In this document: positions 1,684 through 61,718 of the stretch, one piece after another
Layout: each line of letters starts with the position of its first letter
Numbering within the stretch: the first letter of the stretch is position 1
Assembly: GCF_000428825.1 (NCBI RefSeq)
Contig: NZ_AUAR01000007.1
Location: 124,001-188,000, forward strand
Length of the DNA: 64,000 nt
Direction of reading: 5' to 3'
Source: Desulfomicrobium escambiense DSM 10707
GTDB lineage: Bacteria; Desulfobacterota; Desulfovibrionia; Desulfovibrionales; Desulfomicrobiaceae
Position numbers and translations under genes: made by a program
The notes under the pieces: model-generated
What the model saw: only the letters and a program-made list of their open reading frames with translations
Database searches by the model: none
Told to the model about the DNA's origin: nothing

Positions 1684-2580
1684 ATGCCGTGTCATGGAGC
1701 TCCGGCATTGCATTCCGTTATCCAGCGCGTAGCAGCCATCCACGATCTCTCCGGATTCGGCGGGGGGTCACTCTCAGCAGTGATCCCCATTCTTTCGGCC
1801 ATGGGCATACAGGTCTGCAGCCTGCCCACGGCCATCCTCTCTACCCACACTGGCGGCTTCACGGACTTCCATTTCCGCGACCTGTCCGACGACATGCGCC
1901 TCATCATCACGCACTGGCGCAGGCTGTCCCTGTCCTTTGCCGCCATCTACTCCGGGTTCCTGGGCTCCGTCGAACAGATCGACATCGTTCGCGACTTCAT
2001 CCGCGACTTCCGCAACCCCGACACGCTGGTGGTCGTCGATCCGGTCCTGGGCGATGACGGCAGGCTCTACAACACCATGGGCGAAGGGATGGTGGCCGGC
2101 ATGCGCAGCCTTGTCGCCTCGGCCGACGTCATCACCCCGAACATCACGGAAGCGGCCCTGCTGCTGGGCGAATCGTCCCTTCCGACCCCGTCCGACACGG
2201 CCGAGATCAAAGTCTGGACCGCCGCCCTTTCGGACCTCGGACCCCGCTGCGTCATCATCACCAGCGTGCCCGAAGACTCTGTCCGGGGCACGTCCGTCGT
2301 GGCCTACGACCGCGCGGCCGGCCGCTACTGGAAAGTCGCATGCCCTTACATTCCGGCATGTTACCCTGGGACTGGAGATATCTTCGCCAGCGTGATAAGC
2401 GGATCCCTCCTGCAGGGCGACTCGCTCCCCCTGTCCCTGGACAGGGCCGTGCAGTTCGTGTCCATGGCCATCAGGACGACATTCGGCCACAATTTTCCGG
2501 AGCGCGAAGGCGTTTTCCTGGAACGGGTGCTGCCAAGCCTGAACGCACCCGTGTCCATGAGCAGCTTCGAACTGATATGA
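1684..2580 (+). CDS. pdxY: Pyridoxal/pyridoxamine kinase
   Basis: 298-residue ribokinase-superfamily kinase that phosphorylates B6 vitamers in the salvage of pyridoxal 5'-phosphate. Diagnostic segments are the N-terminal IHDLSGFGGGSLSAVIPIL, the VDPVLGDDGRLY strand, the ITPNITEAALLLG segment and the anion-hole motif YPGTGDIFAS, with GTGD at residues 229-232 and D232 as expected catalytic base. The start at 1684 is supported by AGGAAGG just upstream. The stop overlaps the ATG of the following HAD gene (ATGA), opening a translationally coupled chain that runs into mla. The specific vitamer preference (PdxK versus PdxY) cannot be decided. Confidence 0.85.
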   Translation: MPCHGAPALHSVIQRVAAIHDLSGFGGGSLSAVIPILSAMGIQVCSLPTAILSTHTGGFTDFHFRDLSDDMRLIITHWRRLSLSFAAIYSGFLGSVEQIDIVRDFIRDFRNPDTLVVVDPVLGDDGRLYNTMGEGMVAGMRSLVASADVITPNITEAALLLGESSLPTPSDTAEIKVWTAALSDLGPRCVIITSVPEDSVRGTSVVAYDRAAGRYWKVACPYIPACYPGTGDIFASVISGSLLQGDSLPLSLDRAVQFVSMAIRTTFGHNFPEREGVFLERVLPSLNAPVSMSSFELI

Positions 2581-3419
2581 CTCCGTACCGCGGCATCTTC
2601 GTCAGCGACCTGGACGGCACCCTGCTGCGCGACGGACGCATCTCCCCCGAGGATCTCGACGCCTTCGCGACCCTCGGCAATCACGGCATCCTGCGGGTCG
2701 TCGCCACGGGACGCGCCCTGCACTCGGCCGAAGCCTGCCTGCCGGACGGCTTTCCGGCGGACTATCTCGTTCTTTCCACGGGAAATCAGGTCGTGCACTG
2801 GGGAACCCGAGAGGTACTGCGTTCTTCCCGCTTGTTGGCGGACGAAATTCAGGCTATCTGTTTAGCTTTGCGCGGGCTCGACCTGAGCTTCATGGTCCAT
2901 GACGATTTCCCGGGGAACCGGGGCTTCGCCTTCAGCCGAGGCCGGAAGCGGGTCGAGGACTTCGAGCGCAGGCTGACCCTCTATGCGGCGCATGGACGCG
3001 AGATGAGCGGTTGCCCGGGCATGGACGCCGCGTCCCAGGTCCTGGCCATTGTCGACGCCGAGGACGAGGGGATGCATGCACTCCTCGCCCGGGAGTTCGC
3101 GGGCCTGAGCGTCATCCGGGCCACCTCGCCCCTGGACGACCGCTCCGTATGGATTGAGATTTTCGCGGCGGGCGTCTCCAAGGCCAAAGGCGTGCGGGAC
3201 ATCGTCGACCGTCACGGACTGCAGGAAACGCTGATCGCCGCCATCGGCAACGACCACAACGACAGGGACATGCTCGACATGGCGCATGTGCCCTTCAAGA
3301 TCGGAAATTCATTTTTGGGCGACGACACCTACATCACCGCCCCGAACACCAGCGATGCTGTGGCCAGAGCCATCGCGCACTATATGGAATTGCTGCAGGC
3401 AGACGCAGAGCGTTCATGA
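2577..3419 (+). CDS. Cof-like HAD-superfamily (IIB) phosphatase
   Basis: 280 residues. Motif I is DLDGTLL with D11 as expected nucleophile and D13 as acid/base; motif IV is GNDHNDRDM near the C-terminus, as in Cof-type sugar-phosphate or PLP phosphatases of HAD subfamily IIB, and the middle holds the large C2 cap. Start at 2577 is set by ATGA overlap with the kinase stop; the longer frame upstream overlaps the kinase. Sitting directly after a pyridoxal kinase, a role in pyridoxal phosphate turnover is possible but is inference from context only. Its own stop overlaps the mlaE start. Confidence 0.85.
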   Translation: MTPYRGIFVSDLDGTLLRDGRISPEDLDAFATLGNHGILRVVATGRALHSAEACLPDGFPADYLVLSTGNQVVHWGTREVLRSSRLLADEIQAICLALRGLDLSFMVHDDFPGNRGFAFSRGRKRVEDFERRLTLYAAHGREMSGCPGMDAASQVLAIVDAEDEGMHALLAREFAGLSVIRATSPLDDRSVWIEIFAAGVSKAKGVRDIVDRHGLQETLIAAIGNDHNDRDMLDMAHVPFKIGNSFLGDDTYITAPNTSDAVARAIAHYMELLQADAERS

Positions 3420-4207
3420 AAAGCATATTCGCCTTCCCCGCGCTGATCGGGGCAACTTCGCTGTCCATCGTGCGCAACGTGGGACAGTGGGGAGTCTTCT
3501 CCCTGATGTCGCTCCTGGGCATGATCCACGTGCGCAAGCTTTTCCCCAAGGTGCTCTACAACATCCACTTCATCGGCTTCAAATCCCTGAACATCATCAT
3601 TCTCGTGGCCTTCTTCACGGGCATGGTCCTGGGACTGCAGGGCTACTACACCCTCATCAAGTTCAGCGCCGAAGGCATGCTCGGCGTGGCCGTGGCCCTC
3701 TCCTTGGTGCGCGAACTGGGGCCGGTGCTGACGGCCATCATGCTGATCGGCCGGGCAGGGTCGAGCATCAGCGCCGAGATCGGCATCATGCGCATCTCCG
3801 AGCAGATCGACGCCCTGTCCACCATGGACGTGGACCCCGTGCGCTACCTCGTCACGCCCAAGGTCATCGCTTCCCTGATCTGCTTCCCGCTGCTGACGGC
3901 GATCTTCGACTGCGTGGGCATCATGGGCGGCTACTTCTCGTCCCTGCTCCTGAGTACCCGCTCGGGCATCTACTTCAGCAAGATCCAGTCGAGCCTGCTC
4001 CTGGAGGACGTCACCGGGGGCTTCATCAAATCCTTCGTCTTCGCCTTCATCGTCATCACCATCTGCTGCTACTGCGGCTACTACACCCACCAGAACCAGT
4101 CGAGCGCCGGCGCCGAAGGCGTCAGCAACTCAACGACATCGGCCGTGGTCCAATCCTGCGTGTACGTCCTCATCGCCGACTACGTCATAACCTCCTTCCT
4201 GATGTGA
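3416..4207 (+). CDS. mlaE: MlaE-type ABC transporter permease
   Basis: 263 residues, usual MlaE length, with five or six hydrophobic segments. The conserved ELGPVLTAIMLIGRAGSSISAEIG stretch (about residues 100-123) and the following MRISEQIDAL are MlaE hallmarks. MlaE is the inner-membrane permease of the Mla system, moving phospholipids between the inner and outer membranes. The start codon overlaps the HAD stop (ATGA) and mlaF begins four bases after its stop, so the operon order is mlaE-F-D-C-A, a common order in deltaproteobacteria. Confidence 0.93.
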   Translation: MKSIFAFPALIGATSLSIVRNVGQWGVFSLMSLLGMIHVRKLFPKVLYNIHFIGFKSLNIIILVAFFTGMVLGLQGYYTLIKFSAEGMLGVAVALSLVRELGPVLTAIMLIGRAGSSISAEIGIMRISEQIDALSTMDVDPVRYLVTPKVIASLICFPLLTAIFDCVGIMGGYFSSLLLSTRSGIYFSKIQSSLLLEDVTGGFIKSFVFAFIVITICCYCGYYTHQNQSSAGAEGVSNSTTSAVVQSCVYVLIADYVITSFLM

Positions 4208-4211
4208 GCCC

Positions 4212-5402
4212 ATGAGCGAGACACCCCTCATCCAACTGCGCAACATCACGAAGGCCTTCAGCGGCAGGACCATTCTGAAGAACGCCTCCCTGGACATCCG
4301 GCGCAACGAGATCACGGCCATCATCGGCAAGAGCGGCGGGGGCAAGAGCGTCTTGGTCAAGCACATCATCGGACTCATCGAGCCCGACAGCGGCGACATC
4401 GTCTTCGACGGACAGGCCTACTCGACCATGAACCGCCGCCAGTTCTCGGCCGTGAAGAAGCGCTGCAGCTACATGTTCCAGAACAACGCCCTCTTCGACT
4501 CCATGACGGTCTTCGAGAACATCGCTCTGCCCCTGCGGGAGAAGTTCGTCTTCAAGCGCCGTCAGATCGAGGACAAGGTCAGGGCGCGCATCGAGCAGCT
4601 CGAACTGCAGGAAGTGGCCCAGATGTACCCCAAGCAGATCTCGGGGGGCATGCAGAAGCGCGTGGCCCTGGCGCGAGCCCTGGTCACGGAGCCGGAGATC
4701 ATCTTCTTTGACGAGCCCACCACGGGCCTGGACCCCATCCGCAAGAAGACCGTCTTCTCCATGATCCACCATTATTACGAGAAGCTGAACTTCACCGCGG
4801 TCATCATCACCCACGACATCCCGGACATCTTCTACATCGCCCAGACCGTAAACATCCTGGACGAGGGACACATCGTCTTTTCGGGCTCCCCCATCGCCCT
4901 GGAACAGTCGGCCGACCCGGAGCTCTACCCTTACACCCACGGCCACGAACTGCTCATCGACGAGCTGACGGGACTGCACAACAGGCTGGCCCTGACCCGC
5001 AAGATCGACGACTTCAGCGCGGAATCGGGCCGGGACGAGCACGTGGTCGTGGCCACCATCCGACTGGTCGGCATGCGGACCATCATGGACTACAAGGGGA
5101 ACCTCCTGGCCCACGCCATCATCAAGCAGCTGGCCAGATACGTGCAGGGCTTCCTGCCCGCGGGCGCCTGCGCCGGAATGTTCTCCAAGGAAATCCTCGT
5201 CCTGGCTGCCAAGACCAGGGACGCATCCCTTCTCGAAACCTTCCTGAAGCGTCTCGCGGACTATTTCGGGGCCCTGAGCGTCGAAACCTTCTGCCATCGG
5301 CACAGACTGCAGGTCGAAATCGGCGGGACCTTGGCCACCAAGGGCGTCAACGCCTGCACGGCTGTTCAGGAAGCACTTGCAACCTCCAAGAAGTACGTAT
5401 GA
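4212..5402 (+). CDS. mlaF: MlaF-type ABC ATPase with C-terminal degenerate GGDEF-like domain
   Basis: Residues 1-245 are a complete MlaF ATPase: Walker A GKSGGGKS (39-46), signature SGGMQ (144-148), Walker B IIFFDEPT with D167/E168, H-loop H201. MlaF powers phospholipid transport with MlaE. The protein is 396 residues against about 260-270 for ordinary MlaF. The extra part (about 246-396) begins with DELTGLHNR (250-258), the hallmark opening of GGDEF diguanylate cyclase domains, and continues with IMDYKGNLLAHAIIKQLAR where GGDEF proteins have the IND-YGH-GD helix. The catalytic GGDEF loop is replaced by AGMFSKEILVL (321-331), so cyclase activity is not expected. It could sense a nucleotide or act as a protein-interaction module; this is inference. 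Confidence 0.88.
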   Translation: MSETPLIQLRNITKAFSGRTILKNASLDIRRNEITAIIGKSGGGKSVLVKHIIGLIEPDSGDIVFDGQAYSTMNRRQFSAVKKRCSYMFQNNALFDSMTVFENIALPLREKFVFKRRQIEDKVRARIEQLELQEVAQMYPKQISGGMQKRVALARALVTEPEIIFFDEPTTGLDPIRKKTVFSMIHHYYEKLNFTAVIITHDIPDIFYIAQTVNILDEGHIVFSGSPIALEQSADPELYPYTHGHELLIDELTGLHNRLALTRKIDDFSAESGRDEHVVVATIRLVGMRTIMDYKGNLLAHAIIKQLARYVQGFLPAGACAGMFSKEILVLAAKTRDASLLETFLKRLADYFGALSVETFCHRHRLQVEIGGTLATKGVNACTAVQEALATSKKYV

Positions 5403-11401: not shown

Positions 11402-11430
11402 ACTTATTCGCGCAACGACAGGAATGTCAA
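11402..11430 (-). promoter_or_regulatory. Sigma-70-type promoter of tetR-dctPQM
   Basis: On the minus strand TTGACA (11430-11425) is followed after 17 bases by ATAAGT (11407-11402). The palindromic operator begins at the next base, so bound repressor would cover the start point. Confidence 0.6.
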
Positions 11431-11489
11431 GCGCCATCGAGAAGATTCCGCAACCTCTCTTGCGGAACACCCGAAACGCCCCACTTTCC

Positions 11490-11518
11490 TTGACAGCCTC
11501 CGAGCCCCCGACTAGCCT
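11490..11518 (+). promoter_or_regulatory. Probable promoter of the cobalamin operon
   Basis: TTGACA (11490-11495), a 17-base spacer and TAGCCT (11513-11518). It ends just before the riboswitch fold begins, so the aptamer would be at the very 5' end of the transcript. Confidence 0.5.
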
Positions 11519-11524
11519 TCCACC

Positions 11525-11690
11525 CACTTCGGATACCTTCGGGTGTAAAAGGGAATCCCGTGCAAATCGGGAGCGGACCCGCCGCCGTGAGTTTCAGCAA
11601 GGCCATCCTCCGCGCTGTCCACTGGGAACCATCCTGGGAAGGACGAGGACGGTGAAACGAGTCGGAAGACCTGTCCGAAGGCCAACCACA
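11525..11690 (+). ncRNA. Cobalamin (B12) riboswitch
   Basis: The conserved core is visible: GGGAATCCCGTGCAAATCGG followed by GAGCGGACCCGCCGCCGTGA, then the distal B12-box region with CACTGGGAACCATCCTGGGA and GAGTCGGAAGACCTGTC. These are the class hallmarks of the AdoCbl aptamer. It stands upstream of cbiK, the B12-type ABC transporter and cbi genes, so the run is expected to be turned down by adenosylcobalamin. The expression platform between 11690 and the cbiK start is not obvious; GC-rich hairpins near 11700-11745 are candidates. Confidence 0.9.
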
Positions 11691-11780
11691 GTCTGTGCCG
11701 TCCGCAACGGGGGTTTTGCGGGCCGCGCCCCGGACCCGCGTCCGTCTTCATCCATTTCCCCCGCCAAACCTGGAGGTCTC

Positions 11781-12665
11781 ATGTTCAAAGCCTCGCATGT
11801 TTGCGGACTCGTTCTCGTCATTTCCATTATGTTCCTCGGCGCCCAGGCTTTCGCCGGCCACGGTGGGGATCGGCCGACCAAAAAGGGCATCCTGCTGGTC
11901 GCCTTCGGCACCACGGTTCCCAAGGCTCGCGCCGCCCTGGACACCATCGACGCCAGGGCCAAGGCCCGCTTTCCCGACCTGGAGGTGCGCTGGGCCTATT
12001 CTTCGCGCATCGTGCGCCAGAAACTGGCCGGCGAGGGACTGCACTTCGATTCCCCGGCCATGGCCCTGGCGCGCATGATGGACGACGGCTTCACCCACGT
12101 GGCCGTGCAGTCCCTGCAGACCATCCCCGGCGAGGAGTTCCACGCCTTGCAGCGCACGGTCGAGGCGTTCTCGGGCCTGCCCAAGGGCATGGAACAGGTG
12201 ACCCTGGGCCTGCCGCTCCTGGCCGAACCGGCCGACGTCGAGGCCTGCGCCAAGGCCGTCATGGCCAGCCTGCCGCCTGAACGGAAAAAGAATGAAGCCG
12301 TCATCCTCATGGGACATGGCACCCATCACCCGGCCAACATCTACTATCCCGGCCTGCAGTACTCGCTGAGCCGGCTCGACCCCCTGGTCCTGGTTGGCAC
12401 CGTCGAGGGCACGCCCTCCCTGGACGATGTGCGCGCGACTCTGAAAGAACGAAAAGTCAGGAAAGCCTGGCTCCAGCCCCTCATGGCCGTTTCCGGCGAC
12501 CATGCCGTCAACGACATGGCCGGCGACGGGGACGACTCCTGGAAGTCCGTGCTCACGGCCGACGGCGTGGCCTGCGAAGCGGTGCTGCGCGGCACGGCCG
12601 AGATCCCGGCCTTCGTGGACATCTGGCTTGACCACCTGCAGGCCGCCGTGGAGCGGTTGAACTGA
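11781..12665 (+). CDS. cbiK: Sirohydrochlorin cobaltochelatase CbiK, exported form
   Basis: 294 residues. The CbiK domain begins at KKGILLVAFGTTVPKARAALDTI and includes the metal-site segment LMGHGTHHPANIYYPGLQ and the C-terminal LQPLMAVSGDHAVNDMAGD. CbiK inserts Co2+ into sirohydrochlorin in the anaerobic B12 route. The N-terminus is a clear signal peptide (hydrophobic residues 8-27, cut near AFA), so this is a periplasmic CbiK as described for the CbiK-P protein of Desulfovibrio vulgaris, where a role in iron or haem handling was suggested. ATG 11781 has GGAGG seven bases upstream. First gene after the riboswitch. Confidence 0.92.
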   Translation: MFKASHVCGLVLVISIMFLGAQAFAGHGGDRPTKKGILLVAFGTTVPKARAALDTIDARAKARFPDLEVRWAYSSRIVRQKLAGEGLHFDSPAMALARMMDDGFTHVAVQSLQTIPGEEFHALQRTVEAFSGLPKGMEQVTLGLPLLAEPADVEACAKAVMASLPPERKKNEAVILMGHGTHHPANIYYPGLQYSLSRLDPLVLVGTVEGTPSLDDVRATLKERKVRKAWLQPLMAVSGDHAVNDMAGDGDDSWKSVLTADGVACEAVLRGTAEIPAFVDIWLDHLQAAVERLN

Positions 12666-12667
12666 CC

Positions 12668-13675
12668 ATGACCGGGCCGCGTCACACCCGGGCCTGGCTG
12701 CTTCTGGCGGCCGCCGTGCCCCTCTCGGTCTACGCGGCCCTGTTCTTCGGGTCCTACCCCCTTTCGGCTGCAGCTATCCACGAGGCCCTGACGGCATGGC
12801 TGCGGGGCGGGCCCGAAACCCAGGATCTGGTCATCGTGCGCGACATCCGCCTGGGCCGCATCATCCTCTCGTTTCTGACCGGATCAGCCCTGGCCGTCTC
12901 GGGCGGGGTCTTCCAGGGCCTGCTGCGCAACCCCCTGGCCGACCCCTTCACCCTGGGCATATCCAGCGGCGCGGCCTGCGGGGCGGCCTTGGCCCTGGGC
13001 TTTGGCTGGGCCCTGCCGGGACCGTCAGCCCTGCCCCTGGCCGCCCTGGCCGGAGCCTTCGCGGCCATGGGGATGGTCCTGGGCCTGAGCCGTCTGGCCG
13101 GGGATTTCTCGCGCGAGAGCCTGGTCCTGGGCGGCATCGTCGTCTCGACGTTTCTGGGCGCGCTCATCGCCCTCATCAAGTCCCTGAACGAGGAGTCGGT
13201 CTCGGCCATCGTCTTCTGGATCATGGGCAGCTTTCAGGGCAGAGGGTTCGACCACGTGGGTGTCATGCTGCCCTACCTGGCCGTCGGGGGCGCAACGGTT
13301 TTTCTGCTGGCCCGCGAACTGGACATCCTGGCCCTGGGGACCGAGCAGGCCGCCCAGGTCGGAGTGGCCGTGAAGCGGGTGCGCATCGCCCTGCTGGTCG
13401 GCGCCGGCATGCTGACCGCCGCGGCCGTCAGCGTCTCCGGGATCATCGGCTTCGTGGGCCTCGTGGTGCCGCATCTGGTGCGGATGCTCGTCGGGCCGGA
13501 CTCCCGCCGGCTGCTCCTTTTCTCGGCCCTGGGCGGCGGGATTCTGCTGCTGTGGTCCGACGTCCTGGCCCGGACCATCCTGACACACGGTGCCGAACTG
13601 CCCGTGGGCGTGCTCACTGCCCTCTTCGGCGGGCCCTTCTTCTGCCTGATCATGGCCCGCAGGCGCACGGCATGA
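12668..13675 (+). CDS. btuC: FecCD/BtuC-type ABC transporter permease
   Basis: 335 residues, about ten hydrophobic segments; characteristic segments GGVFQGLLRNPLADPFTLGISSGAACGAALAL near the N-terminus and GIIGFVGLVVPHLVRMLVGPDSRRLL near the C-terminus. The family moves cobalamin, haem or Fe(III)-siderophores across the inner membrane. Placement after a B12 riboswitch and between cbi genes suggests cobalamin, cobinamide or a cobalt-corrinoid precursor. It starts two bases after cbiK and overlaps the ATPase gene at its end (ATGA). Confidence 0.88.
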   Translation: MTGPRHTRAWLLLAAAVPLSVYAALFFGSYPLSAAAIHEALTAWLRGGPETQDLVIVRDIRLGRIILSFLTGSALAVSGGVFQGLLRNPLADPFTLGISSGAACGAALALGFGWALPGPSALPLAALAGAFAAMGMVLGLSRLAGDFSRESLVLGGIVVSTFLGALIALIKSLNEESVSAIVFWIMGSFQGRGFDHVGVMLPYLAVGGATVFLLARELDILALGTEQAAQVGVAVKRVRIALLVGAGMLTAAAVSVSGIIGFVGLVVPHLVRMLVGPDSRRLLLFSALGGGILLLWSDVLARTILTHGAELPVGVLTALFGGPFFCLIMARRRTA

Positions 13676-54570: not shown

Positions 54571-56133
54571 CATCTCCCGCAGCACCGCCTGCGCCACCGC
54601 CACCCCGTCCATGGCCGCCGAGACGATGCCCCCCGCATAACCCGCCCCTTCCCCGCAGGGAAAAAGCCCGGACACCTCCGGGTGCATGAGCGTCTCGCGG
54701 TCGCGCGGGATGCGCACCGGCGAACTCGTGCGCGACTCCGCGGCCAAAAGCGTGGCCTCGGCGCTGTCGAAGCCCTTGTGCTTGGCGCCCAGGATGGACA
54801 GGCCCTCGCGCAGGGCCCGGGCCACGAAGCCGGGCAGCAGCTCGTGCAGCGGGGCCGCGTATACCCCGGGGATGTAGGAGGTCTTGCCCAGGACCCCGGA
54901 CAGCCGCCCGGCTAGGAAATCCGGCACGCGCTGGGCCGGGGCGCGCTGCGTCGTCCCGTCGCCGGCCCGGAACATGTCCTGCTCCACCGAAGCCTGGAAC
55001 CGCAGCAAGGCCAGGGGATCGCGTTCCGCTACGTCGTCGGGCCGGACCTCGGCCACCAGTCCGGCGTTGGCGAAGGGCGCGCTGCGGCTGGCCAGGCTCA
55101 TGCCGTTCAGGACCAGTTCGCCCGGCGCCGTGGAGGCCGGAACCACGAACCCACCCGGACACATGCAGAAAGAGAAGACGCCCCGCTCGGCCGTCTGGCA
55201 GGCCAGCCGGTAGCTGGCCGCGGGCAGGGCCGGATGGCGCGGCGACTGGTGGTAGAACATGCGGTCCACCAGCGCCTGCGGGTGTTCGATGCGCACGCCC
55301 AGGGCAAAGGGCTTGGCCTCGATGCGCACACCCTGCCGCTGCAGGAGATGGTAGACGTCGCGGGCCGAATGCCCTGTGGCCAGGATCACGGCGTCGCCCT
55401 CGACGCTCTCCCCGCCCGCCAGGCGCACGCCCCGCACCCTACCCCCGTCGAGGAGGAGGTCGGACACGTGGGCCCCAAAATGAATCTCACCGCCGGCGGC
55501 CACAATGGCCTCGCGCATGCCCCGCACGAGCCGCGGCAGGACGTTGGAGCCCAGATGCGGGTGGGCATCCACGCGGATGTCTTCCGATGCCCCGAAGGAC
55601 ACGAAGAGGTCCAGGATGCGGTCCACGTCGCCGCGCTTGGTGGCGCGGGTGTAGAGCTTGCCGTCGGAATAGGTGCCGGCCCCGCCCTCGCCGAAGCAGT
55701 AGTTGGAATGCGGGTCGATGAGCCCTTCGGAATAGATCCTCTTCACGTCCTTGAGGCGCGAGCGCACGTCCCGGCCGCGCTCCAGAAGCACGGGCCTGAT
55801 GCCCGCCTCCAGAAGCGTCAGGGCGGCGAAGTACCCGCCGGGCCCGGCCCCGACCACCACCGCCCGTTTCCCGCCAAGCGGAGCCGGCCGGAAGATCGAG
55901 GCGCCCCGTTCCTCCCCGCCCACGGCCACGCGCAACTGAAAGCGCGGCATGCGGGCGCGGGCGTCGATGGAGCGGCGCACCACGCGCACGGGCGCGGGGT
56001 CGCTGTCCGGGCGCCCGGCCTTGGCCAGGGCGTGAGCGCGGATGTGCGCGGCGTCGCCGATCCGGTCGGGTTCGACCAGGATCTCGACATGAACCGTGTC
56101 GGTCGTCGATGTCCGTTGATTCGTCAAAACCAT
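54562..56133 (-). CDS. NAD(P)/FAD-dependent dehydrogenase (COG2509 type)
   Basis: 523 residues. Rossmann FAD motif GGKRAVVVGAGPGGYFAALTLLEAG (near residue 90), SNYCFGEGGAGTYSDGKLYTR and the C-terminal GLFPCGEGAGYAGGIVSAAMDG are typical of this uncharacterised FAD-dependent family. The N-terminal 85 residues are a separate conserved domain. The ATG at 56133 lies only two bases from GGAGG; a TTG at 56127, coupled to the HAD stop, may be the true start. Substrate unknown. Confidence 0.82.
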   Translation of the reverse strand: MVLTNQRTSTTDTVHVEILVEPDRIGDAAHIRAHALAKAGRPDSDPAPVRVVRRSIDARARMPRFQLRVAVGGEERGASIFRPAPLGGKRAVVVGAGPGGYFAALTLLEAGIRPVLLERGRDVRSRLKDVKRIYSEGLIDPHSNYCFGEGGAGTYSDGKLYTRATKRGDVDRILDLFVSFGASEDIRVDAHPHLGSNVLPRLVRGMREAIVAAGGEIHFGAHVSDLLLDGGRVRGVRLAGGESVEGDAVILATGHSARDVYHLLQRQGVRIEAKPFALGVRIEHPQALVDRMFYHQSPRHPALPAASYRLACQTAERGVFSFCMCPGGFVVPASTAPGELVLNGMSLASRSAPFANAGLVAEVRPDDVAERDPLALLRFQASVEQDMFRAGDGTTQRAPAQRVPDFLAGRLSGVLGKTSYIPGVYAAPLHELLPGFVARALREGLSILGAKHKGFDSAEATLLAAESRTSSPVRIPRDRETLMHPEVSGLFPCGEGAGYAGGIVSAAMDGVAVAQAVLREMKK

Positions 56134-56786
56134 TCCTCCCGCATGAGCAGCGCCCGGGACAGGGACGGGTACATGGCCGCGGCCCCCCCGCGCACGTCGT
56201 CCTCGGGCACGGCCAGATCCGGGACCATGATGGCCCGGGCGCCGGACGCGATGGCCGCCCGCATGCCGGGGTTCGAGTCCTCGAACACGACGCAGTCCGC
56301 CGCGCGCACCCCGAGGCAGGCGCTGGCCCGGTGGTAGATGTCCGGGTCCGGCTTGGGGCGCTCGACCTGCTCGACGGTCATCGTGGCCGCAAAGCGGAAG
56401 AGCTCGGGCCAGGCCTCGCGGTTGCGCTCCACGGCCTCGCGCGACGAGGACGTGGCCAGGGCCATGGGCACGCCCTGCCCTTCGAGCCACAGCACCATCT
56501 CCAGGGCGCCCTCCTTGGGCGGGATGGCCGCCGTCCTGCGCTCTGCCTCGCGCGCCGCCTTCCAGTTGCGCCGGAACTCGTCGAGGGGAAAATCCTTAAA
56601 CCACTGAGTGAGCTTTTGCTCGCACAGCACATTGGGCACGCCCACGAGATGGGCGTAGTGCGCGTCGTCGAGATCGAAACCCAGCAGGGCGGCCTCGCGT
56701 TGCCAGATCCGCTTGAGGGTGACCTCGGTGTCGAGAAGCAGGCCGTCCATGTCGAAGAGGACGGCCGCGGGGCGTTTGGTGTTCAT
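56124..56786 (-). CDS. HAD-superfamily (IA) hydrolase, beta-phosphoglucomutase-like
   Basis: 220 residues. Motif I LFDMDGLLLDTE, cap domain, motif II ALATSSSRE, lysine in ERPKPDPDIYHRA, and acidic motif FEDSNPGMRAA. This resembles PGMB/GPP-type phosphatases. It overlaps the FAD gene start by ten bases. No strong ribosome site is seen before its ATG. Substrate unknown. Confidence 0.88.
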   Translation of the reverse strand: MNTKRPAAVLFDMDGLLLDTEVTLKRIWQREAALLGFDLDDAHYAHLVGVPNVLCEQKLTQWFKDFPLDEFRRNWKAAREAERRTAAIPPKEGALEMVLWLEGQGVPMALATSSSREAVERNREAWPELFRFAATMTVEQVERPKPDPDIYHRASACLGVRAADCVVFEDSNPGMRAAIASGARAIMVPDLAVPEDDVRGGAAAMYPSLSRALLMREEWF

Positions 56787-59247: not shown

Positions 59248-59747
59248 AGCACTCGGCGGACGCAATGCCCGTCGCCGCCCAAACCGCCGTTCGAACTCCA
59301 GGCCTGCCTCACCCGCACGTCCCCGCCCGGGTCATGCGTCACGTCAATTCATGCCGCTTCTTACATATTTCTACGAAAAAACATTGATTCGCACTGAAGT
59401 TTCAGTGTATCGTCTTGTAAAATTCATTATTTTCTATTTACATTACTGAAATATTAACAATTTTAAATTCAAGCATCCGTTTTTCGCAATGACGAGACTT
59501 CTGAGATGCATGTCATTATTCTCGATGACAGAAGCGTCATATCCTTCATACATGCTCATTAATGATATTTTTTCGCAATAAAGACACCCTGATTTGCCGC
59601 CATGACATCACAGCCCGCAACAAACATCTCGCATTCCGCACAGGGCCGCGCACACGGCAATTCGGAGTCACGGCCCGGACGGCAGATTTCCGGCAGGCTC
59701 GCCGAATATTCCCGTACAACAGCCATCGAAACGGAAGGGGGAATTCG
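59248..59747. other. AT-rich non-coding gap upstream of the cytochrome genes
   Basis: Five hundred bases without a credible gene, with an AT-rich core (about 59380-59580) unlike the rest of the window. It holds a near-perfect palindrome at 59392-59407 (CACTGAA-GT-TTCAGTG). The promoter of the cytochrome pair must be in this stretch, but I cannot assign boxes. Its composition suggests acquired or regulatory DNA. Confidence 0.6.
59392..59407. promoter_or_regulatory. Candidate operator upstream of the cytochrome pair
   Basis: CACTGAA (59392-59398) and TTCAGTG (59401-59407) are exact inverted halves around GT, in the AT-rich gap. It is 340 bases before the nrfH-like ATG. The regulator is unknown. 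Confidence 0.4.
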
Positions 59748-60299
59748 ATGAAAAAATTCCTGAAACCGACCCTCTTGATCGTATTTGGGATTGTGATCGG
59801 TTTTCCAATCTTCAGCATGACATACTACACCATGGTGAGGACAAGCACTCCGCAATTCTGCGCATCGTGCCACGAAATCCAGTGGGCCTACGATACCTGG
59901 AAGACATCGACGCATGTGAACAACCTTCAAGGCTTTGTAGCGGACTGCATGGATTGTCACCTTCCTGCGCCGCATGACACGGTGAATTTCTTCTATATGA
60001 AGACTGTGCATGGAATCAAAGACGTCGTCGCGCATTTCATGATGGATTCTCCAGATGACTACGACCATGGGGAAAACCGCAGGAAAGCCTACGCGTCATT
60101 CAAAAATGACCAATGTCTCAAATGTCACCGCAACATCCAATACATCCCCAACAAGCGAGGAGCGATGCTCGCTCACAAGCAGGTTCTCTATCCAATGGCA
60201 GGCATGGAGAAACGCTGCGTGGAATGCCACTACGACCTCGTGCATAACAACAGAAAAATCTACGACTACCACAGACTCGACTTGATCGCCAAAAGGTGA
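59748..60299 (+). CDS. NapC/NrfH-family tetrahaem membrane cytochrome c
   Basis: 183 residues: one N-terminal membrane anchor (about 8-30) and four CxxCH sites: CASCH (38-42), CMDCH (67-71), CLKCH (123-127), CVECH (157-161). NapC/NrfH proteins take electrons from menaquinol and pass them to a periplasmic oxidoreductase; here the partner is the octahaem protein 36 bases downstream, as in HaoCA of epsilonproteobacteria. ATG 59748 is chosen over an upstream ATG at 59562, which lacks an anchor. Codon choice is more AT-rich than its neighbours. Confidence 0.9.
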   Translation: MKKFLKPTLLIVFGIVIGFPIFSMTYYTMVRTSTPQFCASCHEIQWAYDTWKTSTHVNNLQGFVADCMDCHLPAPHDTVNFFYMKTVHGIKDVVAHFMMDSPDDYDHGENRRKAYASFKNDQCLKCHRNIQYIPNKRGAMLAHKQVLYPMAGMEKRCVECHYDLVHNNRKIYDYHRLDLIAKR

Positions 60300-60335
60300 A
60301 TATTTTCGACACGACAATTCTCAAGGAGGGAAGGA

Positions 60336-61718
60336 ATGAAACACGCTGTATTTTCGATCCTCATCACCCTTTTTCTGCTCTGCCTTGCGTCCGGCGTCGG
60401 AGCGGACATGAGCAAGGTCAAGGAGTTCCGCATCGAACGCGGCATGTCCGAACAGGCCAAAGCCTGCATCGAGTGCCACAAGACAGAGACTCCCGGCCTC
60501 TTCGCCGACTGGGCGGGCAGCCGCCACGCCAACGCCAACATCAGCTGCCTGGACTGCCATCAGGCCGAGGAACATGACGCCGACGTTTCCGACCCCCACT
60601 ACAAGCAGTACCAGCGGGACGACAACAAGTGGGGCAAGCAGGAATACCGCGTTCCCGTCGCCGCGGCGGTCACGCCCAAAGACTGCTCACGCTGCCACCC
60701 CGACGAGGTCAAGCAGTACGGCCGGAGCAAGCACGCCAACACCATCGAGATCATGTGGAAAATCGACCCCTGGCTCAACAAGGGCATGAACAGCGACTGG
60801 GAGCGCACGGCAGGCTGCTACTACTGCCACGGGACCGTGCTGAAGAAGGACGCCAAGGGCAACCTCGACGCATCGACCTGGCCCAACGTGGGCGTGGGCC
60901 GCGTGAACATGGACGGTTCCCTGGGCAGCTGCACCTCCTGCCACACCAGGCACCGCTTCTCCGTGGCCGAGGCACGCAAGCCGGAGGCATGCGGTCAGTG
61001 CCACCTCGGCCCCGACCACCCGCAAATCGAAATCTACACCGAGTCCAAGCACGGCGCCATCACCGAGACCAACAAGCATGAATATCGCTGGGACGCCGCT
61101 CCGGGCACCTGGACGGCCGGCGTCGACTACCGTTCGCCAAGCTGCGCGGCCTGCCACATGTCCGGCTCGGGCGAAGTCATCGGCTCGCATGACGTCACCG
61201 AGCGCCTCGGCTGGGAGCTGCAGGCCCCGCTGACCGTCCGGCCCCAGGACTTCGCGGCCTTTCCGGCCAAGACCAACTGGCAGGACGAACAGGAAAAGAT
61301 GAAGAAGGTCTGCGTGCAGTGTCACAGCAAGAGCTGGGTGGACGCGCACTACGTCAAGACCGACCAGTCCGTGACCGAGTACAACGAGGTCTACTACAAG
61401 CCCGCCAAAGCCATGCTCGACGACTTGTACGCCAAAGGCCTTCTCGACAGCGGAAAATTCTTCGACGAGAAGCTCGAGGTCGAGTTCTACGAGCTCTGGC
61501 ATCACGAAGGCCGCCGGGCCCGCATGGGCACGGCCATGATGGCCCCGGATTACACGTGGTGGCATGGTTTCTACGAATGCAAGCACCGCTACAACAACTT
61601 CATGGCCGAGGCGCGCCACCTCATCGCCACAGGCACCAAGGCCGAGATCTTCAAGGATTTCCCCAACGCCAACGGCGACACCACCAAGCCGCAGGTCATC
61701 TTCGGATCCAAGCAGTAG
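60336..61718 (+). CDS. Octahaem HAO-like cytochrome c
   Basis: 460 residues: signal peptide (1 to about 23, ending GVGA) and eight CxxCH motifs at about residues 44, 71, 117, 161, 199, 219, 270 and 326. The spacing and the late YTWWHGFYECKHRYNNFMAEARHL match the hydroxylamine oxidoreductase family, including epsilonproteobacterial Hao, which is thought to reduce nitrite or hydroxylamine. It is not a pentahaem NrfA. Paired with the NrfH-like gene it forms a menaquinol-linked reductase. I cannot tell by eye whether the P460 cross-linking Tyr is kept. Confidence 0.88.
   Translation: MKHAVFSILITLFLLCLASGVGADMSKVKEFRIERGMSEQAKACIECHKTETPGLFADWAGSRHANANISCLDCHQAEEHDADVSDPHYKQYQRDDNKWGKQEYRVPVAAAVTPKDCSRCHPDEVKQYGRSKHANTIEIMWKIDPWLNKGMNSDWERTAGCYYCHGTVLKKDAKGNLDASTWPNVGVGRVNMDGSLGSCTSCHTRHRFSVAEARKPEACGQCHLGPDHPQIEIYTESKHGAITETNKHEYRWDAAPGTWTAGVDYRSPSCAACHMSGSGEVIGSHDVTERLGWELQAPLTVRPQDFAAFPAKTNWQDEQEKMKKVCVQCHSKSWVDAHYVKTDQSVTEYNEVYYKPAKAMLDDLYAKGLLDSGKFFDEKLEVEFYELWHHEGRRARMGTAMMAPDYTWWHGFYECKHRYNNFMAEARHLIATGTKAEIFKDFPNANGDTTKPQVIFGSKQ

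Follow-up and report, generated by a model that had tools for sequence, protein, structure and literature searches.

The window analysed here, a 64-kb stretch of the genome of Desulfomicrobium escambiense (genome G000 in what follows), carries a pair of multihaem cytochrome genes on its forward strand, the first encoding a tetrahaem quinol dehydrogenase of the NapC/NrfH family and the second (hao) an octahaem cytochrome c of the HAO family. The pair stands behind an AT-rich leader, is followed by a GC-rich hairpin, and lies between the genes for a K+ channel/TrkA-domain protein (TrkA) and an iron-containing alcohol dehydrogenase (ADH); coordinates are collected in Table 1. The start of the tetrahaem gene was set at the ATG at 59748, a longer open reading frame (ORF) from 59562 reaching into the leader. 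The two genes are 36 nt apart, purine runs resembling ribosome-binding sites precede both of them, and the ORF list holds, between TrkA and ADH, no ORF besides the pair that we judged to be a gene. The hairpin downstream of hao probably marks the end of the transcription unit. A terminator scan of the window does not list it. Each of the other three Desulfomicrobium genomes with the pair has a hairpin of differing sequence at this place (z-scores of -2.6, -5.3 and -3.5). Leader, genes and hairpin would then form a single transcription unit.

Table 1. Features of the cytochrome locus and its flanks (positions within the 64-kb window).
Feature	Start	End	Strand	Basis and remarks
K+ channel/TrkA-domain protein, left flank	57532	59247	+	Pfam
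AT-rich leader	59248	59747	+	48.6% GC; core 59360-59590 31.6% GC
Promoter-like pair TTGATT (59384-59389), 18 nt, TATCGT (59408-59413)	59384	59413	+	weak; alignment reading
Inverted repeat, 7-2-7, CACTGAA-GT-TTCAGTG	59392	59407	.	exact 7-nt arms; centre not self-complementary
Tetrahaem NapC/NrfH-family membrane quinol dehydrogenase, HaoC/CycB-like, 183 amino acids	59748	60299	+	ORF, Pfam, alignment
Octahaem HAO-family cytochrome c, probably reductive type, 460 amino acids	60336	61718	+	Pfam, PDB matches, Trp408
GC-rich strong hairpin, probable transcription-unit end	61738	61774	+	-30 kcal/mol, z -5.2; without long T run
Iron-containing ADH family, right flank	61831	62994	-	Pfam/NCBIfam

The main comparison set consists of the best 80 of 171 relatives (loci L002-L081) and leans toward close kin, the nearest named locus to the window pair, at 92% identity, being labelled 'uncultured Desulfomicrobium'. 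The tetrahaem and hao genes are adjacent in 78 of these 80 loci, 72 of which show at least 160 amino acids of the first gene; in the remaining two (L055 and L063) the contig ends too near hao to show it. A sequence-only reading of the window had proposed precisely such a pair, and the ORFs, the haem counts, the Pfam matches and this joint occurrence sustain the proposal.

The octahaem protein has eight CxxCH motifs, as do all 91 close rows of its alignment, and matches Pfam Multi-haem_cyto (PF13447) with an E-value of 5.4e-32 (111.5 bits against a cut-off of 21.9). Its best sequence match in the PDB is 4qo5 (E 7e-44; 2.6e-65 in a profile search), an octahaem cytochrome that we take to come from Ignicoccus hospitalis and that differs in a diverged C-terminal motif, QDWTTF. 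Matches to the HAO of Nitrosomonas europaea (E 6e-28, over window residues 40-372) and to Kuenenia HAO were obtained as well. An identity as octahaem nitrite reductase (ONR/TvNiR) was considered and rejected on the absence of the active-site CxxCK haem from the window protein and from all 91 close rows.

The residue facing the P460 Tyr of oxidative HAO, which the sequence-only reading had singled out for an alignment check, falls on the reductive side. The Tyr in question (Tyr467 of N. europaea HAO, the Y of GGWTYTEGW in the 4fas chain, counted from residue 416) was placed on the window protein by way of Ruegeria pomeroyi HAO (L117, a plasmid record), a near end-to-end match to the N. europaea enzyme. 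In a BLASTP alignment the R. pomeroyi Tyr faces Trp408 of the window protein, and a MAFFT alignment of 103 rows returns the same register. Trp408, Trp409 and His410 are invariant in the 91 close rows, and the two next relatives (L098 and L099) have His at position 408. Should the register be one residue off, as the Met401-Trp409 spacing would allow, the site becomes Trp409, again not Tyr; a Met eight residues before the Trp has been described, and Trp is cited at the key site of Campylobacterota Hao, in one report (PMC8940962). Two other routes to the site were discarded: a direct phmmer search with the C-terminal 55 residues gave a sole, unrelated match, and the octahaem protein of locus L103, used as a bridge, yields no C-terminal HAO alignment. 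That protein belongs to a different octahaem cytochrome type, about 28% identical to the window's, found in two Desulfomicrobium genomes without the pair, G001 and G015 (L103 997-2526, minus strand; L104 955-2517, plus strand); 4qo5 is the best PDB match of the L103 protein (E 3e-109) and is closer to it than to the window protein.

An AlphaFold model of the octahaem protein, built with 36 rows, leads to the same residue. Its residues 270-434, the C-terminal part only, match the fold of N. europaea HAO over 150-152 residues with a Z of 10 and a root mean square deviation (rmsd) of 3.2-3.3, with the caveat that values of Z below about 13 can arise in helical models; the top nine rows of the fold search are all octahaem HAO-family entries, and the tenth has a Z of 5.5. 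The match ends at residue 434 facing 493 of 1fgj, and at 433 facing 492 of 4fas, and a gap-free extension from these end points, which are all that the aligner reports and from which the extension is our own step, sets 408 against 467. A fold match was also obtained to the Kuenenia complex Kustc0457/Kustc0458 (6h5l; Z 8.4, rmsd 5.1), a reductive HAO-like octahaem complex that likewise lacks the Tyr (motif QDVSWWWG, weakly aligned); the sequence match is partial here, and the comparison covers the HAO-type protein, as distinct from its partner Kustc0457.

Because the P460 Tyr position holds Trp408 in 91 of 91 rows, a reductive role is supported, and by the usual rule for HAO-type proteins without this Tyr the octahaem protein, as opposed to N. 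europaea HAO (4fas/1fgj), would be a reductase. The rule was itself inferred from few enzymes, and to our knowledge few HAO-type proteins without the P460 Tyr have been purified. A 2025 study infers that the oxidative Tyr form of anammox HAOs was preceded by a reductive one bearing His at this position, and that most other bacteria have the reductive form (PMC12758564).

The tetrahaem protein has four CxxCH motifs and matches Pfam Cytochrom_NNT (PF03264) with an E-value of 2.5e-37 (128.7 bits against a cut-off of 24.1). It scores under every NCBIfam equivalog cut-off among the models it matches, TorC included, and reaches 75.1 bits with the NrfH equivalog (TIGR03153), where 134.2 are required. 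It shares with Desulfovibrio vulgaris NrfH (2j7a) the family, the four haems and the equivalents of Lys82 and Asp89, presumably quinol-site residues, which are K85 and D92 here and are invariant in 24 of 24 aligned rows. It differs in having HaoA instead of NrfA as its partner, and in the position of Met49, which we take to be the haem-1 ligand of D. vulgaris NrfH; Ile replaces it in the window protein and in 78 of 80 relatives. At that site the genome's second NrfH reads CxxCHxM (CGSCHSM). The cell thus has two distinct proteins of NrfH type, each of which probably feeds a reductase of its own.

The surroundings of the pair in part of the relatives point to nitrogen-oxide stress. ORFs of 85 loci (L003-L081 and L118-L123, L002 being omitted as it shares a contig with L122) were clustered, and the commonest neighbour, besides the pair and its antisense ORFs, is hcp, found in 16 of the 85; a tblastn variant gives 18 of 85 in a slightly different set, with L002 in and L119 out. 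Of the 14 loci with measured distances, 11 have hcp downstream of hao at 69-398 bp; in another it lies 1.9 kb downstream, and in two it is upstream. The three hcp representatives checked were all NCBIfam hydroxylamine reductases. From the 35 hcp genes over the cut-off per roughly 54 Mb of genus genomes, about 0.5 would be expected in the 805 kb covered, a rough figure that applies the Desulfomicrobium density to loci of other orders. The HcpR box described for delta-proteobacteria, TTGACN4GTCAA, is given in a report that also gives a CRP-like box for Desulfovibrio (PMC1274295). Upstream of the pair in 77 loci it occurs five times exactly (in L007, L021, L059, L065 and L072), against 0.0 in shuffled sequences, seven times against 1.2 at one mismatch and 15 times against 11.5 at two; 22 exact boxes lie across the 805 kb, several of them immediately before a neighbouring hcp. 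CRP-type HcpR, HcpR2, NorR and sigma-54 boxes show no enrichment upstream of the pair, and the FNR/DNR box at most a slight excess (with one mismatch five, where 2.6 are expected; with two, 27, where 19.3 are expected). We draw no inference from the presence of various sigma-54 activators in 8 of the 85 loci and of Crp/Fnr genes in 6.

On plasmid Do28_1 of Desulfosarcina ovata (L119) the pair lies between a TetR gene and a block of ferredoxin, norR and quinol nitric oxide reductase (qNOR) genes; the same 25 kb hold hcp, fprA, a Crp/Fnr gene and a hemerythrin gene, and a Tn3-family transposase gene lies a few kb off. The stretch 2213-22863 of this locus may be described as a nitrogen-oxide island of a mobilizable plasmid, with both the pair and a quinol nitric oxide (NO) reductase. 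A 72-kb plasmid of Desulfobaculum bizertense (L118) has the pair at 11419-13416, with genes for formate dehydrogenase and for FeFe hydrogenase at a distance of about 6-10 kb. Within Desulfomicrobium, genome G003 (L122) has a divergent hcp (2496-4220, minus strand) beside the pair, where other genomes of the genus have the TrkA gene.

The host genome is already equipped for nitrogen oxides. It has three hcp genes over the cut-off, and hcp is over the cut-off in all 16 genus genomes. NrfHA is encoded on contig 4 of G000, the identity of NrfA having been checked in this genome by its CxxCK haem site and its own NrfH as neighbour; NrfA-like matches occur in 16 of 16 genus genomes, but none of the 16 passes the cut-off of the E. 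coli-type equivalog model. NapA is over the cut-off in none of the 16, the sensitivity of the model for sulfate-reducer NapA not having been gauged; nitrite would therefore have an external source, in keeping with a role in defence.

Taken together, these findings make it probable, in our judgement, that the pair is a self-contained respiratory cassette in which a quinol-fed reductive octahaem HAO serves as an extra module for nitrogen-oxide removal under nitrosative stress. Such a stress module appears most likely because the genome already has NrfHA and Hcp and because part of the relatives show hcp or HcpR boxes. The NapC/NrfH-type tetrahaem protein would oxidise menaquinol in the inner membrane, passing the electrons to the periplasmic octahaem HAO-type protein, which, without the P460 Tyr cross-link, would reduce nitrite, NO or hydroxylamine; hydroxylamine (or NO) released might then be finished by cytoplasmic Hcp, as in the reverse hydroxylamine:ubiquinone redox module (reverse-HURM) scheme, the cassette acting beside NrfHA and not instead of it. 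The gene content, the number of haems, the fold family, the lack of Tyr at the aligned position, the enrichment of neighbours and boxes and the patchy occurrence are observed; electron flow, its direction, the substrate and the physiological role are what we infer here, and substrate and purpose are the weakest steps of the reading. The pair probably belongs to a known enzyme type, as an addition to a genome that already has NrfHA and Hcp. The sequence-only reading had called it a HaoCA-type reductive module, HaoCA being, we assume, the name for the related epsilon-Hao system of Campylobacterota; as a reductive module it holds up, on the invariant Trp and, in part of the relatives, on hcp and HcpR boxes, whereas its label 'NrfH' for the tetrahaem protein is loose in view of the equivalog score. 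A precedent is the reverse-HURM of Nautilia profundicola, in which HaoA and CycB/NapC are combined with Hcp, according to its description (PMC3701875). By published description, rather than by sequence, the likeness to this system and to epsilon-Hao lies in an octahaem HAO without the Tyr, a NapC/NrfH-family tetrahaem partner and Hcp in the cell (PMC3701875, PMC8940962). Our case differs in being a sulfate reducer with NrfHA and no NapA over the cut-off, in which the two genes are operon-like, and the reverse-HURM trait of replacing NrfA and working with Nap does not apply, NrfHA being present.

Several observations weigh against this reading. In the window's own genome the hcp genes are on other contigs and none is near the pair, and its leader has no HcpR box (the best candidate has three mismatches) and no CRP-like box. 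Among relatives, hcp is missing from the neighbourhood in 69 of 85 loci, many of them short contigs, and an exact HcpR box from 72 of 77 leaders. Since NrfA already reduces nitrite, the substrate of the pair need not be nitrite, nor indeed any nitrogen oxide. The AlphaFold model has a middling mean predicted local distance difference test score (pLDDT) of 66.6, scores poorly in the segments 197-243 and 249-278, which bind haems 5-7, and stands at 68 in block 401-410, which holds the key site, the other blocks over 341-440 averaging 84-96 except for 391-400 (77). Tyr406 (61551-61553), two residues before Trp408, is invariant in the 91 close rows and also present in L098 and L099, its column being Phe in R. 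pomeroyi HAO and Trp465 in N. europaea HAO; there is a slight possibility that this Tyr forms a cross-link. Finally, the 2025 study infers one separate change from His to Tyr, towards the oxidative form, within Desulfobacterota (PMC12758564).

Two other functions deserve weighing. The pair might instead support growth-linked nitrite ammonification as an alternative to NrfHA, HaoA taking nitrite to ammonium as a respiratory end step. In Nautilia, nitrate raises the transcript of haoA 8.5-fold and that of cycB/napC 7.1-fold (PMC3701875), and a second octahaem protein of Desulfurivibrio, possibly related to this family, is strongly up in ammonifying growth (PMC12142623). NrfHA in the window's genome and NrfA-like matches throughout the genus, the lack of an evident in-house source of nitrite in 16 genomes without NapA over the cut-off, and the patchy presence of the pair all speak against it, and we regard it as rather unlikely. 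An oxidative HAO-like dehydrogenase, which would oxidise hydroxylamine (or hydrazine) and supply the quinone pool with the electrons in a forward HURM as in nitrifiers, shares the octahaem family and the sequence matches to N. europaea and Kuenenia HAO, and could invoke the invariant Tyr406 and the Tyr form inferred for some Desulfobacterota in the 2025 study (PMC12758564), but it is very improbable with Trp at the Tyr467 position in 91 of 91 rows, with hcp/HcpR surroundings in part of the relatives that fit reductive detoxification, and with TrkA and ADH as flanks where the Tyr-bearing Ruegeria HAO is followed by haoB (haoB being compared at the window only).

The history of the cassette within Desulfomicrobium is patchy and partly mobile. 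The pair is present in 4 of 16 genomes of the genus (G000, G010, G002 and G003), and in a sample of the order a close relative of hao, at an E-value of 1e-150, occurs in 67 of 297 genomes, with 26 of the 55 genera represented; three other Desulfovibrionales (G184, G093 and G194) have two or three HAO-type copies. On an rpoB tree of 11 genus genomes, the other five having given no unbroken rpoB, the presence of the pair in four genomes takes four changes, each either a gain or a loss, and G000, G010 and G002 each have a nearest relative that lacks it. In G000 and G010 the pair has TrkA on one side and the iron-ADH gene on the other. In G003, where no TrkA match is found, it precedes ADH, whereas in G002 it lies upstream of TrkA. 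An empty site, with TrkA immediately next to ADH, is seen in G014, G001, G013, G015, G007 and G008 (in the last of these the ADH gene is cut at the contig end), and in G009 TrkA is followed by CysE, with neither ADH nor the pair. By eye, no exact insert ends or target-site duplication were found, the intergenic DNA being too diverged.

A HAO tree of 93 rows, made by a quick method whose support values are starred, groups the four holders together (100*) and places them with G017, a member of the same family, and with L003 (99*), in a branch of 17 rows that are all Desulfovibrionales except L006 and L079. The copy of G021, also of this family (L047, with a protein identical to L095), groups with a Desulfovibrio locus (98*), and further Desulfovibrionales are scattered among Desulfobacterales. 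The rpoB identities (91% between G002 and G010, 84% from these to G000) imply that under vertical descent the pairs of G002 and G010 should be closer to each other than to that of G000. The ratio of the first distance to the second is 0.92 for hao and 0.94 for the tetrahaem gene, against a maximum of 0.74 and a median of 0.61 in 20 background genes, three of which (7799, 25610 and 27472) are probably paralogue comparisons; without them the maximum over 17 genes is still 0.74. A HAD-family gene a few genes from the pair (about 56124-56780), computed apart from the 20, shows the same unexpected depth, with a ratio of 0.94.

We see in this moderate evidence that the pair has moved within the genus, and that neither a recent outside donor nor strict vertical descent accounts for it. 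One alternative is plain inheritance from a family ancestor, with many independent losses and no transfer within the genus. The genus clade and its same-family sisters, the shared site in G000 and G010, the same ADH gene beside the pair in G003, and trees of the pair that do not reject the species grouping (approximately unbiased test, p 0.12-0.41 where tested) are all in keeping with it. The different position in G002, the distance ratios (tempered by the equally deep HAD gene), the branching of the G021 copy with a Desulfovibrio locus and the spread of Desulfovibrionales over several branches tell against it, and we hold it to be possible but doubtful. The phylogeny that the sequence-only reading had asked for is accordingly mixed in outcome: the genus clade opposes a recent foreign origin, and the patchiness, the two positions, the plasmid copies, the G021 copy and a divergence above that of 20 out of 20 genes (matched by the HAD gene) make the descent of the pair not plainly vertical.

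That reading had also noted that the leader and the tetrahaem gene are AT-rich, which is correct, and had taken it as a mark of horizontal transfer, which does not stand. The lowest-GC 200-nt windows of the 64 kb start at 59351-59401 (31.5-33% against a mean of 65.7%), and GC at third codon positions (GC3) is 65% in the tetrahaem gene and 87.9% in hao, compared with 87.4 +/- 5.2% (minimum 74.6%) for 20 window genes. All four Desulfomicrobium holders, however, have an AT-rich leader, with 32-43% GC in the upstream 400 nt against a locus GC of 54-64%, and in a ranking of 77 loci theirs are the lowest in GC relative to their own locus, once L047 is dropped for a run of N in its leader. GC3 in these holders is 65-67% in the tetrahaem gene and 81-91% in hao; the gap between the two genes averages 4 points over 87 loci (some in duplicate, from two collections) and is 14-26 in the Desulfomicrobium loci. 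The leaders align poorly, at a mean column identity of 50%, and among the holders the proportion of synonymous sites that differ (pS) is 0.37-0.45 for hao, within the 0.20-0.58 of the flanking genes, and 0.67-0.82 for the tetrahaem gene, where the corrected distance (dS) is at least 1.6 or not computable. Because all four holders share the composition even though their leaders have diverged so far, and because pS of hao lies within the range of its flanks and that of the tetrahaem gene above it, the odd composition is an old trait of the cassette in the genus and not the sign of a recent donor; its retention in the leader possibly reflects a promoter or silencer function. A recent gain from a low-GC donor, with leader and first gene as the unameliorated remainder, could appeal to the GC3 of 65% against 87%, to empty sites in near relatives and plasmid copies elsewhere, and to distance ratios above those of all 20 background genes. 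It is nonetheless quite unlikely, in view of the normal GC3 of hao, the shared composition of diverged leaders, synonymous differences of hao within the range of its flanks and of the tetrahaem gene higher still, and a tree that sets the pair with its own genus and same-family relatives.

A broader suggestion, which we put forward only tentatively, is that of a travelling stress cassette of sulfate reducers, in which leader, both genes and terminator would move together, either on their own, accompanied by hcp, or on plasmids that also bear qNOR, FprA, Crp/Fnr and NorR genes. In Desulfomicrobium the cassette would have inserted more than once next to the same TrkA gene, and it would provide cells that already have NrfHA with an HcpR-controlled periplasmic sink for nitrogen oxides. 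If this were true, a HAO with Trp408 and a quinol dehydrogenase with Ile for Met would constitute a distinct electron-transfer pair. HAO-type proteins are in any case frequent in Desulfobacterota, as the 67 of 297 genomes with a close relative in this order alone attest, and our literature search, with most subscription papers (including the epsilon-Hao paper) outside its scope, returned no publication treating this cassette in Desulfomicrobium. Closely related species that either have or lack the pair, the site being intact in other respects, and all 16 genomes with Hcp and NrfA-like matches, offer a natural comparison set for the handling of nitrite, NO and hydroxylamine; the HcpR box of some relatives ties reductive HAO to a concrete prediction of its inducer; and the finding bears on the tolerance of sulfate reducers to nitrate or nitrite treatment.

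The leader also contains the inverted repeat of Table 1, the best candidate for the exact palindrome that the sequence-only reading had reported without coordinates. Its 7-nt arms are indeed exact, but the centre is unpaired, one or more hairpins of this kind (arms of 7 nt, spacer of 0-10 nt) turn up in 25% of shuffled sequences (0.038 expected for the exact geometry), and in the alignment the leaders of the other three Desulfomicrobium holders do not keep the repeat; it was rejected as a regulator site on this chance-level frequency and lack of conservation. It sits within the spacer of a promoter-like pair. A promoter scan called no plus-strand promoter in the leader; TTGATTC is kept in all four leaders as their best-conserved element, and by our reading a -10-like hexamer follows each copy. 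A second AT-rich patch occurs elsewhere in the window, with 45.5% GC at 961-1160 and 51.8% at 1001-1500.

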